A stretch of 37,356 nt of DNA. Origin: Ardenticatenia bacterium. Its GTDB lineage: Bacteria; Chloroflexota; Anaerolineae; 4572-78; NAK82. Shown piece after piece: positions 1,868-12,244 of the stretch (positions are counted from its first letter, which is position 1; the number at the start of each line of letters is the position of its first letter). The position numbers were made by a program, and so were the translations under genes. The notes under the pieces were generated by a model. The model ran no database searches and was not told where the DNA came from. It worked only from the letters and a program-made list of their open reading frames with translations. The DNA is taken from contig QEXY01000098.1 in NCBI GenBank assembly GCA_003130875.1, positions 1 to 37,356 of the forward strand, read 5' to 3'.

Positions 1868-4800
1868 TCACTCCTCCCGTGCGCGTCGGAAGCGTGGCAG
1901 CACCGTCGCGGCATAGTGCAATGCCACCTCGTCTCCAAGGCGCAGGGATCTCAGATCGGTGCATCCCTTCTGGCCCGGATGGAAGATGCCGATGCGCGCT
2001 CCCACCTCTGCATAACGCTGTTCGACGTAAGCCATGCCTACCAGGAATCCATCCAACCCAGCTGCGCACGAAGTCACCCAGCCGATCATACGCCCACGCG
2101 CACTGACCACAGGATAACCCATCTTGGGAGGGGGCACTCCCTTCTCATTCATACGGAAGCGAATCACGCCCATCGGATTACCCCGCATGCGCGCCATAAT
2201 CGCCCGGCGCCCGACAAAGAAGGGTTTGTGGAGCTTGACGTAGGCGCCAAAGCCAGCTGCAAAAGGGTCGATGTCATACGGACCGGCCAGTTCATGGCCA
2301 TAGAGGGGCAGACCTGCTTCGGTGCGCGTTGAATCGCGCGCGGCAAGACCAGCCGGTTGCACCCCCAGGTCAGCGCCGACCTCTAAAATGCGCCGCCAGA
2401 GCGAGGGAGCGTGTTCGGGATGGACGAAGAGCTCGTACCCCATCTCCTCGCCGGTGTAGCCGGTGCGGGCGATGATCACGTCCAGTCCGCTCAAACGGCC
2501 CTGCATCAGGGCGGTGCGCGGTAGATGCTCCAATCCATCCCGTGTCGAGGTGTCATCCGCCAGGCGTACCAGGATGGCACGCGATTGCGGCCCCTGGAGA
2601 GCGATGTCCACGCGCTGCTGTTCACCCCATTGCGCGTCCTTGAGGTCTTGCAACACAGCCGGCGCCTCGATGGCCTTGCCAGGCGCATCCCGGTCCAGGA
2701 TGACAGCCCGTTGATTGACCGCGTTCAACCAGTCCCAATCCTTCTCCGCGTTAGCGGCGTTGACCACCATCAAATAGTCGTCGGCACGCAGGCGGTAGAG
2801 CATAATATCATCGATCACGTGGCCGTCCGGATCGAGTAGGTAGGAGTACTGCGACTGGCCGTCCTCCAGCCAGGCAACGTAGTTGGTCGTCACCGCATCC
2901 AGAAATGCGGTGGCGTGTGGTCCGCTGACGCGCAACACGCCCATGTGCGACACGTCGTACAGCGCCGCCGTCATGCGCGTGGCGCGATGTTCCTCGGCAG
3001 CGCTGGTATACCACAGCGGCATCTCCCAGCCAGCAAAGGGAGCGATATGACGTGTGCGCTGGCGATGTTCTTCATACAGGCAGGTGCGCTTGAGCGGTGC
3101 CTCATGCGGCGGTTGCCAGTGCCACTCGCTGCGCACGTCATCCGCTGCGGGGGGCAGGCTATGCTGGCCGATGAAATAGAGCTTATGCAGCACGAAGAGT
3201 TCGTGATGCCCAGCACGATAGAGGTCTGCACCGTAGCACGCATCGCCGGAGCGCCATAATGGCGCATCTTGTTCCCGAATGGCTGTCAGCAGGTCGTTCG
3301 CTGCAGCGTGCACGTCGTCCGGCAGCTTCTCGATTTCGTCCGTTGCCAAATCAGCTACTGTTACTGGTCCCTCTATCTTGGCAAACAGGTCGTGTGGGTC
3401 GAACAGCAGGTAGCCATCCGACAATCCGCGCAGCCACGCTTTGACGCGTTCCGCAACTGCTGCGTGCACAGCCACCAGGTAACGTGCGCGGCCACGCTGG
3501 TCAGGGGATAGGGAGCTGACGAAGACATCATCCAACACGCGGCCATCCTGTTCCAGGAGTAGAGCACGGCGCGGCTGTCCGACGGGCAGGTCGCTCAGGT
3601 CGGCGGTGACCACCTGTTGCATAAAGGCATGAGCACGCCAGCCGACAATGAGCAACACCGACCGCCTGCGCTGTCCTGAAGATTTCGGTGAGACAGAAGT
3701 TGTCGCCGCGGTTTCGGGCATCACGAAGAAGTGAGGATAGCCGTTGCGTGGCCCTGAAACATAAGGTGGAAAGGCATCCGCCAGATGAGCGACATCGCGC
3801 TTGACGGATTCCAGCACGTCCAGGGCAATCTTGCCGCGTGGCAGCGGTCCTGTGATGCCCTGATAGGTAAAGGGATGGATGGCACTAACAACACGATGAA
3901 TACAGTCCGCGATCAGCTCCATCTCGGCGATACCCATGCCACGCTGCGTGACCCATGGCGTGCCGAGCCGCACGCCACGCGCCTGGGCCGTCACACGATC
4001 GCTGGGCAATGTGTTTTTGTTCGCCACCAGGCCACAAAGCTCCAGGATGCGCACCACAATTTCACCCAATAAGGGATATCCCTCAGCACTTTTGATCGGG
4101 CGCAGGTCCACCAGGAGCATGTGGGTGTCCGTGCCACCGTAGGCGAGTCGCAACCCGCGCTGCTGCAATGCCTGGCCGAGCGCCTGGGCATTGGTGACGA
4201 TCTGGCGCATCATGGCTTTGAATTCGAGGGTGGCGGCGATCTTGAATGCCACCGCCATCGCCGCGAACTTGTTCGGGTGGGGGCCGCCCTGAGCACCGGG
4301 GAAGACGGCGGTGTCCACCCGGCGCGCCTTTTCCGGGTCGGTGGTCATGATCACGGCGCCGCGCGGGCCACAGATGGTCTTGTGTGTCGTGAAGACGACG
4401 ACATCCGCCAGCCCGACCGGGTTGGGATATACCCCGGCGCTAGCCAGGCCGGCCGGGTGGGCGATGTCGGCCATCAGCAGCGCCCCGCAGGCGTCGGCGA
4501 TCTCGCGGAAGCGCTTCCAATCCGGCGCCCATGGGTAAGAAGTGAACCCCGCCACAATCATCCGTGGGCGATGTTCCAGTGCGAGTGCCATAATGGCATC
4601 ATAATCCAGGCGCTCGCTGACCGGATCGACGCCGTAGGAAACGACGCGGTAACGACGGCCGGAGATGTGGAACGGACTGCCGTGGGAGAGATGCCCGCCC
4701 TGGAACAGGTTCATGCCCATCAGAGTATCACCCGGCTGCAGGAAGGCGTCGTATACCGCCAGGTTCGCCGCCGCACCGGAAAGGGGTTGCACGTTGACGT

Positions 4801-5188
4801 AGATACGCTCAGCAGGCACCTCGGGCGTGGCAAATAGCTCTGCACAACGGCGCTGTGCGAGCGTCTCAACGAAATGGACGTAGGTAGTGCCCTTGTAAAA
4901 ACGCCGGTCGCCGTAACGCCGATAATAGGCCAGCTGGTGGTCGAATTCCAACAAGAGATCGAGATTGTCCTGGGTCATCCGCGTGGGCGGATAACCTTCG
5001 GCGTACACATTGTTGAACACAGAGCCGAGCGCCTGGAGCACCGCTGGCGGGGCTATGCTCTCCGAGGGTATCAGGATGATCTGGCGCGCTTGACGCTCGG
5101 CCTCTAGCGCGATCAGATGTGCGATGTCGGCATCGATATGGTCCAGCTCGGCGGTCAGAAAGCGACGGGCGTACGCAGAGGTATCCAT
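1868..5188 (-). CDS. Fusion protein: serine hydroxymethyltransferase + shortened GcvT-like module + full aminomethyltransferase (GcvT)
   Basis: 1106 residues in one uninterrupted frame. Residues 1-470 are SHMT (serine + THF to glycine + methylene-THF): SESIAPPAV (42-50), VYAEGYP (61-67), SGAAANLAVYDAFLQPGD (137-154), DIAHPAGL (241-248), and the PLP lysine K270 in TTHKTICGPRG. Residues 508-680 look like a shortened GcvT domain: DGRVLDDVFV (548-557) mirrors DGHVIDDIML (788-797), and LHKLYFIGQ (668-676) mirrors LHKPFFVGR (986-994). Residues 700-1100 are a complete GcvT (aminomethyl-lipoyl-protein + THF to methylene-THF + NH3), with FAGWEMPLWY, YDVSHMG, the DD pair at 793-794 likely holding the catalytic Asp, and ARTGYTGE. 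ATG 5188 is chosen because an in-frame TAG lies upstream and there is no other start codon between; GGAGG is rather far (about 18 nt). No gcvH or gcvP is in the window. Expected to be cytosolic, coupling two folate-dependent one-carbon reactions. Confidence 0.93.
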   Translation of the reverse strand: MDTSAYARRFLTAELDHIDADIAHLIALEAERQARQIILIPSESIAPPAVLQALGSVFNNVYAEGYPPTRMTQDNLDLLLEFDHQLAYYRRYGDRRFYKGTTYVHFVETLAQRRCAELFATPEVPAERIYVNVQPLSGAAANLAVYDAFLQPGDTLMGMNLFQGGHLSHGSPFHISGRRYRVVSYGVDPVSERLDYDAIMALALEHRPRMIVAGFTSYPWAPDWKRFREIADACGALLMADIAHPAGLASAGVYPNPVGLADVVVFTTHKTICGPRGAVIMTTDPEKARRVDTAVFPGAQGGPHPNKFAAMAVAFKIAATLEFKAMMRQIVTNAQALGQALQQRGLRLAYGGTDTHMLLVDLRPIKSAEGYPLLGEIVVRILELCGLVANKNTLPSDRVTAQARGVRLGTPWVTQRGMGIAEMELIADCIHRVVSAIHPFTYQGITGPLPRGKIALDVLESVKRDVAHLADAFPPYVSGPRNGYPHFFVMPETAATTSVSPKSSGQRRRSVLLIVGWRAHAFMQQVVTADLSDLPVGQPRRALLLEQDGRVLDDVFVSSLSPDQRGRARYLVAVHAAVAERVKAWLRGLSDGYLLFDPHDLFAKIEGPVTVADLATDEIEKLPDDVHAAANDLLTAIREQDAPLWRSGDACYGADLYRAGHHELFVLHKLYFIGQHSLPPAADDVRSEWHWQPPHEAPLKRTCLYEEHRQRTRHIAPFAGWEMPLWYTSAAEEHRATRMTAALYDVSHMGVLRVSGPHATAFLDAVTTNYVAWLEDGQSQYSYLLDPDGHVIDDIMLYRLRADDYLMVVNAANAEKDWDWLNAVNQRAVILDRDAPGKAIEAPAVLQDLKDAQWGEQQRVDIALQGPQSRAILVRLADDTSTRDGLEHLPRTALMQGRLSGLDVIIARTGYTGEEMGYELFVHPEHAPSLWRRILEVGADLGVQPAGLAARDSTRTEAGLPLYGHELAGPYDIDPFAAGFGAYVKLHKPFFVGRRAIMARMRGNPMGVIRFRMNEKGVPPPKMGYPVVSARGRMIGWVTSCAAGLDGFLVGMAYVEQRYAEVGARIGIFHPGQKGCTDLRSLRLGDEVALHYAATVLPRFRRAREE

Positions 5189-6544: not shown

Positions 6545-8812
6545 GTGCTCGAGCGAGAGGGATTTGTCGAGTTTGTGAAAGACCGTTCGCTTTCTCGCAT
6601 ATTGGACATCGGCGTTGCATTGGCCACGCTTGGGTTCATCTCGACCGTCAGCCAAGTGATGTTGATGCGCGAGCTGGTGGCGACTTTCTACGGCAACGAG
6701 CTTCTTTTTGGGCTGGCCTTGATGGCCTGGTTGATCTGGGGTGCTGTCGGCGCTTGGGGCATCGGTGGTCGCCTCACTCAGTGGAAGCGTACCTCGCCGT
6801 TCACCTTCGCGATAGGCATCAGTGCCATGGCGCCACTGCTCATAGCGCAAATGGTGCTGCTGCGCGGCATCCGGATCATTTTGGGGACCACACCGGGAGC
6901 TTACGTCGATTTCGGTAACACAGTGCTGACGGTCGTGCTCATCCCGACATTCTTCTGTCCGCTTGCTGGCCTCCTATTCACCTTGGGCACCCGATTGATG
7001 CTCGAGCGTCATGGAACAGCCGGCCAGGCCTATTTTTTCGAAAGCTGCGGCGCCGTTGTGGGCGGCTTGCTGGTCAGCTTTGTCTTCATCCACCTGCTGA
7101 GCGTCTTCCAAGTTATCCTCTCGCTCGGTGTGCTGGCCTTCACATCCGCATCCCACCTTATGTGGGACGGACAAAAGCATCACAGATCCCTGTTTCTTCC
7201 CCTCGCCATCGCCCTGGGCGCAGTCGCCTTGGCGGGTGGAATTGCGTTGGACCGATGGACACTGAGCTGGCAATGGCACGACATGGTGTCCTATGCGGAA
7301 TCACCCTACGGTCGCCTGACCGTTCAAGCGCGCGATGGCCAACGCGCCTTCTACACCAACGGCCTCCTTTCGTTTGAGACGCAGAGCACCTTCCCCGAAG
7401 AAGTTGCTCATTTTCCTCTGCTGGCACATCCCCATCCGCGTCACGTGCTGCTGATCGGTGGTGGTGTAGCCGGTAATCTGCGCGAGATATTAAAGCACCC
7501 CATCCAACATGTTACTTATGTCGAGTTAGATCCACAGGTCATCACAATGGCGCGAGCGCACCTGCCCCCCTCCGAAGCCAAGATGCTCGAAGAGCCACGC
7601 GTGCGTGTCATTCTATCGGATGGACGCCATTACGTGGCCAACGCTCCCAAGCATTCTTTCGATGTGATCATCCTCGATCTGCCTCCTCCGACCACCGGGT
7701 CGCTCAATCGTTTCTACACTCGGGAGTTCTTCGCTCAGGTTCGTCAGGCACTTCGCCCGGACGGTCTGTTTGCGCTCGGTCTCCCATCTGCTGAGAATTA
7801 CTGGAGCCCTGAGCTGATGCGACGCAATCTGAGCGTTTACGAGACGCTTAAGACCGCTTTTCCCAGATTGCTGGCCCTGACCAGCGGTGATCACCTGTTT
7901 TTCCTGGCTACCCCAGGCTCGTTCCCGATGAATGCTGCGGCGATGTCCGAAAGGCTGATCGCGCGTGCTATCCAGACCCGCCAGGTGACGCCGTCGTACA
8001 TCGAGTACGTTTTTTCGAACGACCGTTTCACCGCAGATCAGCAACGGCTGGCTTCTGGGAGGACAGTGCGCTTAAACGAGGATTTAGTGCCCATCTGTTA
8101 TTACTACGACCTGGCGCTCTGGCTGTCTCGTTTTTATCCCGCAGTGGGGGAGCTCTTCGAACGCGCCGGATTGATCAACCTCGCCTGGCTATCGCTGCCG
8201 TGGGTTCTCATCGTGTTGCTGACGCGTTACCGGCGGCATTGGGCGGTGCCTGTGGCAATTGCCGGCGTCGGCCTGGCGCACATGATGTTACAGGTGGTGA
8301 TCTTGATCGCATTCCAGACCGAGCATGGAACGGTATACTCCAGTGTGGGAATGGTGGTGACCGCGTTTATGGCAGGCCTGGCAGCGGGCAGCGCCCTGGG
8401 CAATCGGCTGACAAGGCTTTGGGAGAGGCGAGGTACCACTCGAACGGGAACCGCACAGAATGCGACAGCTCGCTCTGTGCGGTTCGGGCTGATAGGGATA
8501 CAGATGGGTGTGATAGGGCTCAGCGGGCTACTGGTGGGGCTGCTATGGCTGCCCTATGAGATACCCGCGGTCGCCTTCGGGGTGCTCGCTGCTGCAGCCG
8601 GTTGCATCACAGGAGCGGCTTTCCCCCTGGCCGTGCTGGCCCTGGGAGAATATACCGCCAGTGCAGCTGGCTGGCTTTATGGTGCCGACCTGGTGGGTGG
8701 AGCGCTGGGAGCTGGACTGGGCACCACCCTATTGTTGCCTCTGCTGGGCATCCCCCAAGTATGTGCCTTCACCGCGCTGATCGGCGTTGCCGGCCTCTTG
8801 TGCCTGTTATAA
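6545..8812 (+). CDS. Membrane-embedded spermidine-synthase-like protein
   Basis: About 755 residues. The N-terminal 20-235 is a block of hydrophobic helices (starting TLGFISTVSQVMLMRELVATFYGNEL), and the C-terminal 540-755 is a second block of helices with Gly-rich packing motifs. Between them (about 260-520) is a soluble spermidine-synthase/methyltransferase-like fold: the nucleotide-binding loop LLIGGGVAGN near residue 300, YVELDPQV near 325, a DGRHYV strand, and DLPPPTTGSLNRFYTREFF near 378. Classical aminopropyltransferases carry a D-rich catalytic motif; here it reads DLPPP, so polyamine synthesis is doubtful. Fused transporter-like/spermidine-synthase-like proteins of this layout are known, with unknown substrate. 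Start uncertain: GTG 6545 has no clear ribosome site, whereas GTG 6575 has GAGAGG upstream. It ends 28 bp before the convergent radical SAM gene. Confidence 0.82.
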   Translation: MLEREGFVEFVKDRSLSRILDIGVALATLGFISTVSQVMLMRELVATFYGNELLFGLALMAWLIWGAVGAWGIGGRLTQWKRTSPFTFAIGISAMAPLLIAQMVLLRGIRIILGTTPGAYVDFGNTVLTVVLIPTFFCPLAGLLFTLGTRLMLERHGTAGQAYFFESCGAVVGGLLVSFVFIHLLSVFQVILSLGVLAFTSASHLMWDGQKHHRSLFLPLAIALGAVALAGGIALDRWTLSWQWHDMVSYAESPYGRLTVQARDGQRAFYTNGLLSFETQSTFPEEVAHFPLLAHPHPRHVLLIGGGVAGNLREILKHPIQHVTYVELDPQVITMARAHLPPSEAKMLEEPRVRVILSDGRHYVANAPKHSFDVIILDLPPPTTGSLNRFYTREFFAQVRQALRPDGLFALGLPSAENYWSPELMRRNLSVYETLKTAFPRLLALTSGDHLFFLATPGSFPMNAAAMSERLIARAIQTRQVTPSYIEYVFSNDRFTADQQRLASGRTVRLNEDLVPICYYYDLALWLSRFYPAVGELFERAGLINLAWLSLPWVLIVLLTRYRRHWAVPVAIAGVGLAHMMLQVVILIAFQTEHGTVYSSVGMVVTAFMAGLAAGSALGNRLTRLWERRGTTRTGTAQNATARSVRFGLIGIQMGVIGLSGLLVGLLWLPYEIPAVAFGVLAAAAGCITGAAFPLAVLALGEYTASAAGWLYGADLVGGALGAGLGTTLLLPLLGIPQVCAFTALIGVAGLLCLL

Positions 8813-8840: not shown

Positions 8841-9947
8841 TTACACCGCCTCTTCGCGCGCTCGCTGCCCTTCGGATGGAGAGCCCTCGTCCAGCGCCAG
8901 CTGTTCGTAGAAGGCGAGAGGACTGAGCTCTGGGAAATTGCCATGCTTTACCAGATGCAACCGAATGTCCAAGCAGAGGTCACATTTGGAGACATAGCCT
9001 TGGGGGGACTCCTGGTATCCGTAACCGCGTGCAAAGTCGAGCAGCGCGCGAATGTCCTCCGCGATCAAGTGGCGCAGCACTGGGTGTTCGCGCAAGTCTA
9101 TGCCATCGCGAATGAGGCGGTCGAGCTCACGCCAGCTTCCCAGCGAAATGCCACCACAAAATCCCGGCATGAAATTGCCGTAGTTATCGAAATGGTTGTG
9201 CCAGTCGCGCAGAAACGGCGGTTGACAGGGTTCGCCGAAGAACACCGATGCGGGATAGCTGCGGTAGTACGGCTTGAGCGCACGAGCGGCTCGCCCCATC
9301 AAGAACATCTCAACCGCGATGGTTCCACCCAATGTTGCCGCTAATGTCAGATAGCGCTCAAACGAGACCTTCCCCTGTAGACCTAACCGCTTAAACTGCC
9401 GGTAGAACTCTATCTGATAGATCATCACATTAGGGCCGAAAACCTCTTGGCTGATGCGGATACAACGCTCGGTGCGTTCGAAAGGGATGTATTCAACGTA
9501 GAAGGGATTGACCGAGATCATAATACCCTTGAGGCCGGCCCGTCGCAGGTGTTCCAATCGTTCACGGGTGACCGCATCACTGACGCACCAGGAGCAGTTC
9601 GTCTCGACAAAAGTGGACGGGATGTCCAGCTCCGCGGCCATTTGCACTGCCAAAACCAGCAACTTGAAGTTCAGAAAGGGCTCGCCACCCGTGAAATGCA
9701 AACCGTGGCTCAGGCTGACCCGCTCTCGCCCCCACGGGCTGGGCACGATATGGCCTGTCAGGGAAGAGAGGAGCTGGTAAAGATCGGACTCCGTGATCCA
9801 GTCTGCCTTCCACGCAGGTGAGCAAGCGTACATACAGTGCCGGCAAGCCGCTGAGCACTTATAGGAAAGGATCACACCAGCCGAGGCAGGTGCAGGCACC
9901 CTGACCCGAACGACATTCTCATTCTTGAGGGACGTTGCTCCCATCAT
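8841..9947 (-). CDS. Radical SAM protein with extra C-terminal cysteines
   Basis: 368 residues. The radical SAM 4Fe-4S motif CSAACRHC gives C31, C35 and C38 (CxxxCxxC), followed by the SAM-binding GGEP at 87-90, so it should bind a [4Fe-4S] cluster and cleave S-adenosylmethionine. The C-terminal half adds C241, C264, C322 and C325 (CDLC); these could hold an auxiliary SPASM/twitch-like cluster, though the spacing is not the canonical SPASM pattern. The substrate cannot be read from sequence; the size and extra cysteines suit a peptide- or protein-modifying enzyme. ATG 9947 lies inside the end of the endonuclease V gene (29-nt overlap), so the two are translationally linked. It is the last gene of the four-gene minus-strand operon starting at 12244. 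No small precursor-peptide gene is visible next to it. Confidence 0.88.
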   Translation of the reverse strand: MMGATSLKNENVVRVRVPAPASAGVILSYKCSAACRHCMYACSPAWKADWITESDLYQLLSSLTGHIVPSPWGRERVSLSHGLHFTGGEPFLNFKLLVLAVQMAAELDIPSTFVETNCSWCVSDAVTRERLEHLRRAGLKGIMISVNPFYVEYIPFERTERCIRISQEVFGPNVMIYQIEFYRQFKRLGLQGKVSFERYLTLAATLGGTIAVEMFLMGRAARALKPYYRSYPASVFFGEPCQPPFLRDWHNHFDNYGNFMPGFCGGISLGSWRELDRLIRDGIDLREHPVLRHLIAEDIRALLDFARGYGYQESPQGYVSKCDLCLDIRLHLVKHGNFPELSPLAFYEQLALDEGSPSEGQRAREEAV

Positions 9948-10694: not shown

Positions 10695-11057
10695 CTAACG
10701 TTGTTCCATGCGCCGCAGTCCCCACGTCCGTGACACGGGAACGGTGAACATGATGCCGGTGTGTGGGTCGTCGAGCCGCCCGATCACCTTTTCGGCGGCA
10801 GTCACCAGCTTTTCGACATCGAACCCATCCGGCACCACCACGAACACGGTACGCTGTGCCTCTTCCTCCTTGCGGATCAGGCTGGCCAGCGAAGGCATCA
10901 ACGGCAAATCATCCGAAACGCCGAACTTGGCGATGTGACGTCCCAGACCGTGACTCTCAAATATCGTCGCACCGGAGATGCCACACTCCAACCAGGCCTT
11001 CAGCACCGCTTCGATCGCCTCACATTTGGTTGTCACTAGAACCACTAGGTCAGGCAT
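10695..11057 (-). CDS. P-II-like (GlnB-superfamily) small regulatory protein
   Basis: 120 residues of ferredoxin-like fold: LVVLVTTKCEAIEAVLKAWLECGISGATIFESHGLG, then a short loop, then TVFVVVPDGFDVEKLVTAAEKVIG and a final GIMFTVPVSRTWG strand. This is the beta-alpha-beta, beta-alpha-beta layout of P-II proteins, but the long T-loop with its modifiable Tyr and the GlnB signature are absent, so it is a P-II-like relative rather than a nitrogen P-II. Such proteins usually bind nucleotides and control a transporter encoded next to them. Here the start (ATG 11057) overlaps the end of the antiporter gene by 13 nt, which strongly suggests that the antiporter is the partner. The ligand (adenine nucleotide, cyclic nucleotide, bicarbonate or other) cannot be read from sequence. 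Confidence 0.8.
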   Translation of the reverse strand: MPDLVVLVTTKCEAIEAVLKAWLECGISGATIFESHGLGRHIAKFGVSDDLPLMPSLASLIRKEEEAQRTVFVVVPDGFDVEKLVTAAEKVIGRLDDPHTGIMFTVPVSRTWGLRRMEQR

Positions 11058-12244
11058 TCACGCGGTTCTCCCCAACAGAAAACGAAACGCAACAGGGGGG
11101 GCGTCACCAGTGTCGTCACGATTACCATGACCACCACATTGGTGAACAGGTTGGGCTGTATCAGTTGTGCATCAAGGCCGACACCTGCCACAATCAATCC
11201 AACCTCTCCGCGCGAGATCATCCCCGTGCCGACGCGCAACGACTCGCGCCATGACATACCCCCCAGTCGCGCACCCAGTCCACATCCCAAGATTTTAGAG
11301 ACAATCGCGACCAAACACAACAAGGCAGTCAATCCGATGTCGCTTCCGGAAAGCTGACGCAAATCGGCCCGCAGACCGATCACCACCAAGAAGATCGGCA
11401 CGAACAATGCATAATTCAGGGCGTGGATGCCGCGTTCGATCTCGGCACGTTGTGTGCTGCGTGCCAATCCCACACCGGCCACGAATGCCCCCGTGATCGC
11501 CGCAATACCTCCGAGATACTCGGCCGCCCACGCGAAGAGCAGGACGCTTGCCACCGTCACCGAGAGCACGGGCTCACTGATCGGCAGGCGTCTGGTCCAA
11601 TCGACAATGCGTGGCAACACCCACAGACCAACCAGGAACGCCACAGCCAAGAACAAGAACATACGCACGGCGATCCAAGCCAACTGCCAGGGCTGAGTAC
11701 CGCCGCCTAAGACCACCCCCACAAAGATGGAGAGCACGAGGATGGCCAGGATATCGTCCACCACCGCCGCACTGAGCAATGTCAAGCCCTCGCGGCTGCG
11801 CAGCCGTCCCAGCTCCATCAACGTTCGCGCCGAAATGCTCACGGAGGTCGCCGCCAGCACGATCCCCATGAATTCAGCGCTGGTCAGAGGATAATGAAAC
11901 TCGAGTCCTGCCAATGTGCCCAAGCCGACGGGGAAGACCACACCCAGGAACCCGACCAGCACCGCGGCACGGCCAGTCCTCAAGAGGTCGCCGAACTGGA
12001 TTTCCAATCCAGCGGCAAACATCAGAAAGATGACCCCCAGCTCGCCAAATTCGCGGAGGACGTCCAACGTATGAGCATTCTTAAAATAGTCCATCCCAAA
12101 TACGTTGAGGACGGAAGGACCTAACAACAGACCAACCGCCAGCTCACCCAGCACAGCTGGCTGTCCCAAGCGGCGCACCAGCCAGCCACCCACTTTGGCG
12201 GCTATGAGGACAATAGCAAGCCCGAGGAGCAGTGGTATCGCCAT
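11045..12244 (-). CDS. CPA2-family cation/proton antiporter (KefB/NapA type, membrane domain only)
   Basis: 399 residues and about 11-13 hydrophobic helices. Family features: GELAVGLLLGPSVL (33-46), the FAAGLEI helix (76-82), AATSVSISARTL (131-142), and the ion-binding acidic pair VVDDIL (D163, D164). It ends right after the membrane domain: the RCK/TrkA-N nucleotide-binding tail typical of KefB/KefC is missing. The overlapping P-II-like gene may supply that regulatory role in trans (inference). The protein should exchange Na+ or K+ for H+ across the inner membrane. It is the first gene of the operon, with a good promoter at 12326-12354. ATG 12244 has no strong ribosome site (upstream GCAGCTTAACA). 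Confidence 0.9.
   Translation of the reverse strand: MAIPLLLGLAIVLIAAKVGGWLVRRLGQPAVLGELAVGLLLGPSVLNVFGMDYFKNAHTLDVLREFGELGVIFLMFAAGLEIQFGDLLRTGRAAVLVGFLGVVFPVGLGTLAGLEFHYPLTSAEFMGIVLAATSVSISARTLMELGRLRSREGLTLLSAAVVDDILAILVLSIFVGVVLGGGTQPWQLAWIAVRMFLFLAVAFLVGLWVLPRIVDWTRRLPISEPVLSVTVASVLLFAWAAEYLGGIAAITGAFVAGVGLARSTQRAEIERGIHALNYALFVPIFLVVIGLRADLRQLSGSDIGLTALLCLVAIVSKILGCGLGARLGGMSWRESLRVGTGMISRGEVGLIVAGVGLDAQLIQPNLFTNVVVMVIVTTLVTPPLLRFVFCWGEPRECLT

Follow-up and report, generated by a model that had tools for sequence, protein, structure and literature searches.

Methylene-THF is common to serine hydroxymethyltransferase (SHMT) and the glycine cleavage system, which together form the core of serine-glycine one-carbon flow. 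The same pair underlies the photorespiratory glycine-to-serine step of plants and the reductive glycine pathway. SHMT and the T-protein of glycine cleavage (GcvT) are normally separate proteins. GcvT-type domains fused to another enzyme are found in dimethylglycine dehydrogenase/oxidase, sarcosine oxidase alpha and trimethylamine N-oxide (TMAO) demethylase, in which the GcvT-type domain hands the partner's one-carbon product to THF. Here we describe a gene from an Ardenticatenia bacterium, located in a stretch of 37,356 nucleotides (the window), that joins SHMT and GcvT in one chain. The SHMT-GcvT chain differs from those fusions in that the partner is PLP-dependent and uses methylene-THF in its own right, and in that the chain contains a second, degraded GcvT domain. 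No published description of an SHMT-GcvT fusion was found in the open-licence literature, which does not prove the fusion unknown, and no work on channelling between T-protein and SHMT was found among the open-licence papers searched. Provisionally, we regard the domain arrangement as new and undescribed; both enzymes are well known, and the fusion is not a new kind of enzyme.

Domain architecture of the fusion

The gene is an ATG-initiated frame on the minus strand that runs without an internal stop (Table 1); the plus-strand reading of the same interval contains many stops and was rejected. The first-pass annotation had proposed a single polypeptide of SHMT, half a GcvT and a full GcvT, and the uninterrupted frame, the profile searches and the structure comparison agree on this. 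From the N-terminus, the chain comprises a complete SHMT, a shortened GcvT-like module and a complete GcvT. Pfam searches found SHMT and two GCV_T stretches (GCV_T E-value 6.4e-86; residues 704-981 and a partial match at DNA positions 3422-3655), and GCV_T_C (PF08669) reached 24.8 bits, slightly short of its cut-off of 25.9. A full-chain structure prediction, for which 53 family members served as input, had a mean pLDDT of 89 and a pTM of 0.88, and recovered the SHMT and T-protein folds.

Table 1. Positions of the fusion gene and its parts in the window, and of glycine riboswitches at related loci.
Feature	Position	Strand	Basis
SHMT / half-GcvT / GcvT fusion gene	1868..5188	-	ATG start; stop codon 1868-1870; 1106 aa
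SHMT domain, PLP lysine K270	3749..5188 (residues 1-480)	-	Pfam PF00464, 1.8e-116; structural Z ~51
SHMT insertion, ~25 residues, between YAEGYP and RFYKG	4907..4981 (residues 70-94)	-	T. thermophilus SHMT alignment breaks exactly there
Middle module, shortened GcvT folate domain with degraded active site	3149..3667 (residues 508-680)	-	GCV_T profile, hhalign, PDB GcvT, fold match
Nearly invariant core of middle module, W-L-R-x-L-S-D-G-Y-x-x-F-D-x-x-D-x-x-x-K-x-x-G	3368..3436 (residues 585-607)	-	Conservation over 53 members
Complete GcvT (T-protein) with probable C-terminal barrel	1871..3103 (residues 696-1106)	-	PF01571 1-253/255; NCBIfam gcvT above cut-off; Z 46.9 to 1wos
Glycine riboswitch RF00504	L077:1029-1190	same as fusion	216 bases before fusion
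Glycine riboswitch RF00504	L087:6435-6535	same as fusion	Upstream of fusion or its likely operon
Glycine riboswitch RF00504	L114:6282-6376	same as fusion	Upstream of fusion or its likely operon
Glycine riboswitch RF00504	L131:6228-6419	same as fusion	Upstream of fusion or its likely operon

The N-terminal domain is a complete SHMT with its PLP lysine at K270, as had been noted from the sequence. The SHMT family model matched over its full length (389 bits, cut-off 27), NCBIfam NF000586 scored 421 bits (cut-off 335), and SHMT crystal structures matched model residues 10-481. K270 is invariant in the family and aligns with K226 of Thermus thermophilus SHMT; Y62, E64, Y98, H166, D241, H244, K270 and R407 are identical in 53/53 members, most of the SHMT and GcvT residues checked being positioned by alignment with solved enzymes. 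Compared with GlyA (PF00464; E. coli 1dfo, T. thermophilus 2dkj, B. stearothermophilus 1kkj), the whole fold is alike, and the PLP lysine and the listed catalytic and folate-site residues are common to both. Unlike GlyA, the fusion carries a 25-residue insertion after YAEGYP, a fused GcvT tail, and F97 (or Y) where RYYGG has its first tyrosine. The insertion was found in all aligned members and is characteristic of the family. In sequence it adjoins the active-site residues Y62/E64 and Y98, a position from which it could alter the substrate range.

The full GcvT placed by the first-pass annotation at residues 700-1100 was likewise recovered at the C-terminus. TIGR00528, the gcvT equivalog, scored 283 bits (cut-off 236), residues 699-1106 matched the Thermotoga maritima T-protein 1wos over 356 residues, and the fold match extends to residue 1106. 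D794 is the catalytic Asp, equivalent to D96 of T. maritima GcvT, and Y781, D794, N810, Y911, E919 and R951 are identical in all 53 members. Set against stand-alone GcvT (PF01571 + PF08669; T. maritima 1woo/1wos, B. subtilis 1yx2), the fusion domain appears to be a complete two-part protein and keeps all listed folate and catalytic residues. It differs from stand-alone GcvT in sitting behind SHMT and half a GcvT, and in one extra residue in TGEExGYE.

Spread and re-splitting of the fusion

The window derives from a fragmented genome (195 contigs), in which an assembly error or a frameshift could join neighbouring genes, as the first-pass annotation had warned. We consider this artefact refuted and its residual probability negligible, because independent full-length copies exist in other genomes: a sister species encodes a frame 83% identical over the full length, and the fusion also occurs in two single-contig genomes (G034, G050) and in several phyla. 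We scanned bacterial and archaeal genomes, one per species, with an SHMT segment specific to the family and obtained at least 595 matching stretches, at least 556 of which encode a relative. Among the best 80 of these relatives, nearly all frames uncut by contig ends carry SHMT and GcvT together; the exceptions (L076, L098, L115, L135) are apparently broken frames or lie on short contigs. The fused relatives among the best 80 belong to Chloroflexota (Anaerolineae, Thermoflexus, Anaerolinea, Bellilinea), Bipolaricaulota, Aerophobetes and Thermoplasmata archaea; the search of other genomes that had been suggested thereby found the fusion in several phyla. Across 300 sampled genomes of the window's phylum, at least 57 have, among the matches listed, an open frame of at least 1030 residues with the middle module. 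SHMT and GcvT distances over the 53 members correlate (0.84, permutation p 0.001), as would be expected of two parts that move together. Chloroflexota-like fusions were also seen on contigs labelled Pirellulales, Spirochaetes and Proteobacteria (L079, L124, L101), which may reflect gene transfer or mis-binning.

In one family of the class the gene is in two pieces again, divided by a stop that falls within the middle module (L054:6556-8316 (-); G204, G291, G321, G335). SHMT keeps the half domain there (~590-640 aa) and GcvT has a gene of its own; the two genes are neighbours in three of the genomes. Since this family separated the fusion again, the physical link between SHMT and GcvT is dispensable there. 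In the split relative G027, the SHMT gene ends just after the core of the middle module (...WWRALSDGYVIFDEAHPEAPLPGPVAVI-stop).

The middle module

The middle segment had been read as a shortened GcvT on the strength of two repeated motifs, and both are borne out: D-G-R-V-L-D-D at 548-554 corresponds to D-G-H-V-I-D-D at 788-794, and LHKLYFIG at 667 to LHKPFFVG. Profile and fold comparisons agree with this reading. GCV_T profile positions 51-123 matched the middle module (E-value 9.8e-10), hhalign aligned it with the chain's own C-terminal GcvT (99.5% with short forms, 100% with long forms), and profile searches against PDB GcvT gave E-values of 6e-16 and 2.7e-34. When the module was predicted alone (pLDDT 87), T-proteins were the best fold matches (Z 15.8 over 159 residues), and its strands and helices follow one another as they do in the first half of the C-terminal GcvT. 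An unrelated origin was ruled out by the profile and fold searches. YgfZ (1nrk) and IBA57 (6qe3), GcvT-fold proteins that are not T-proteins, matched nearly as well as T-proteins by fold (Z 14-15), but GcvT was far ahead by sequence profile, and this assignment was also rejected. The module resembles YgfZ and IBA57 in combining a GcvT fold with the absence of the T-protein active site; it differs from them in being shorter, in lying inside a fusion and in its descent from a complete GcvT folate domain.

As an active GcvT the module falls short: an Asp occupies the D96 position in only 24/53 members, and the window protein has no Asn at the N112 position. Folate binding by the half domain, one of the roles suggested by the first-pass annotation, is unlikely in the window protein because it has lost both the N112 equivalent and, by deletion, the segments with Y188/E195/R227 (T. 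maritima numbering). The relatives differ in how much of the domain they keep. In Aerophobetes and Thermoplasmata, the middle module retains the whole GcvT folate domain (GCV_T 1-238) and lacks the barrel alone, but the active-site residues of these long modules are already eroded. Most long forms of Anaerolineae have a reduced N-terminal part, and many members, the window protein among them, have lost the stretch with the later folate-site residues by deletion. The GCV_T profile fails to detect the module in Anaerolinea and Bellilinea. On a tree of the SHMT and GcvT columns only (branch support by a quick method), the distribution of long and short modules, two classes defined by our own cut (over 260 or not), needs at least six parsimony changes.

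One segment of the module remained nearly invariant while the flanking sequence was lost: W585, D597 and G607 are conserved in 53/53 members, D591 and Y593 in 51/53, and K604 in 49/53. The middle module is what is left of a once complete GcvT folate domain, which has lost its active site and been cut down on several occasions. Because the core remains on SHMT where the gene was split again, we infer that it belongs functionally with SHMT and is not merely a spacer. The remnant is probably a structural or docking piece belonging with SHMT, and more than a linker. A middle domain worn repeatedly to one conserved core offers a clean case of an enzyme domain turned non-catalytic.

Genomic context and proposed function

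Of the 30 fusion-bearing genomes searched, a few (such as G027, G057 and G058) have the gene split or truncated at contig ends. SHMT is represented by the fusion alone in 17/30 genomes, and the fusion is both the sole SHMT and the sole GCV_T match in 13 (G025, G030-G034, G036, G040, G048, G061-G064), as judged by profile searches over the contigs of mostly incomplete genomes. In these 13 genomes, the fusion should therefore supply both functions. GcvP and GcvH are encoded in 30/30 fusion genomes (GcvP in 10/14 controls), and formate-THF ligase in 27/30 compared with 4/14 controls. Gene order also connects the fusion with glycine cleavage. It heads a fusion-gcvH-gcvPA-gcvPB cluster in G041, is directly followed by gcvH in G051, L088 and L089, and precedes gcvP in L087 with a short frame (probably gcvH) between them. 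The order is gcvH-gcvPA-gcvPB-c1-fusion in L101 and aminotransferase-fusion-transketolase-gcvH-gcvP in L131. Four related loci have glycine riboswitches on the strand of the fusion (Table 1).

The window copy has a different setting. At other places in its genome and in that of the sister species (G000, G001) lie an ordinary GlyA gene and a complete gcvT-gcvH-gcvPA-gcvPB operon, which makes the fusion formally redundant there. Neither gcv neighbours nor a glycine riboswitch were found at the window fusion; no Rfam match lies nearby, and no riboswitch, terminator or promoter specific to this copy rose above chance. Because ordinary GlyA and GcvT are also present, the role of the fusion in this genome is less certain, and it may be a spare, conditional or specialised copy.

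We consider it likely, reasoning from sequence and gene context, that the fusion is a bifunctional SHMT/T-protein that couples glycine cleavage with serine metabolism; in genomes lacking stand-alone copies, the simplest reading is that it is the cell's SHMT and T-protein. The C-terminal domain would act as the T-protein of glycine cleavage, converting the aminomethyl group on lipoyl-GcvH to ammonia and 5,10-methylene-THF (or the reverse), and the N-terminal domain would be an active SHMT that forms serine from methylene-THF and glycine (or the reverse). Working together with GcvP, GcvH and lipoamide dehydrogenase, such an enzyme would turn two glycines into one serine plus CO2 and ammonia, or the other way round, and a single chain would carry both of the steps that involve folate. 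The middle module is a second GcvT folate domain that has lost catalysis and probably serves a structural or docking role with SHMT. The architecture and its conservation, the intact active sites of SHMT and GcvT, the loss of the middle one, the sole-copy status in 13 genomes, the association with GcvH/GcvP and the glycine riboswitches are observations; activity of both domains in vitro, the direction of flux, the docking and any channelling are inferred from them.

How closely the two activities would be coupled separates two further readings. The chances are about even that the fusion is plainly tethered, a sub-case of the bifunctional reading in which both enzymes are active and benefit from equal expression and proximity only, neither channelling nor any particular function of the middle module being involved. 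The re-splitting in one family fits this, as does a module shortened several times (six parsimony changes) to the point of escaping GCV_T detection in Anaerolinea and Bellilinea; the W-L-R-x-L-S-D-G-Y core, nearly invariant while its surroundings disappear and retained with SHMT after the split, argues against it. A more elaborate reading, to which we assign a low probability, is a single-chain serine synthase in which the degenerate GcvT docks the T-protein onto SHMT and guides methylene-THF directly between the sites, turning two glycines into one serine, or the reverse, without folate release. Channelling of methylene-THF within the fusion is an attractive guess, offered here as a hypothesis. 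If true, single-chain serine synthesis would be widely used in Chloroflexota, Bipolaricaulota and some archaea. As the sole copy of both enzymes in many genomes, the natural fusion provides a ready-made test for methylene-THF channelling, and it might also serve as a component in designs for the assimilation of formate or CO2.

Alternatively, and especially in the window's genus, the fusion might act on a different substrate, for example as an aldolase or transferase for 2-methylserine or another beta-hydroxy amino acid, joined to a GcvT-type demethylase that loads THF with one-carbon units. Such a role would suit G000 and G001, in which GlyA and a gcvT-H-PA-PB operon exist apart from the fusion; it would also fit the insertion peculiar to this family's SHMT, close in sequence to the active site, and the presence of demethylases such as TMAO demethylase among GcvT relatives. 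We nevertheless hold it to be quite improbable: the fusion is the sole SHMT and GcvT in 13 genomes, its relatives have glycine riboswitches and gcv neighbours, and its NCBIfam scores lie above the SHMT and gcvT cut-offs and far below those of demethylases. The bifunctional SHMT/T-protein remains our preferred reading.

Other neighbouring genes were recorded as well. Upstream of the fusion and on the same strand, 17 loci (Anaerolineae, Bipolaricaulota) carry a member of a family of ~390 aa that no Pfam or NCBIfam model matched above cut-off; it usually adjoins or overlaps the fusion (L090:4833-5924 (+), L046:5154-6431 (+), L101:6468-7655 (+)), and its D-I-D-T-P-T-D-L motif may resemble those of nucleotidyltransferases. 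This family was not found in the window's genome. Divergent from the window fusion lies a response-regulator gene, adjoining a gene for a 755-aa protein with a spermidine-synthase-like domain at 285-411 (6545-8812 (+)). A radical SAM protein weakly similar to YydG-type peptide epimerases (8841-9947 (-)) overlaps an endonuclease V gene, and a P-II-like protein adjoins an Na+/H+ exchanger (10695-12244 (-)), a possible regulator-transporter pair.
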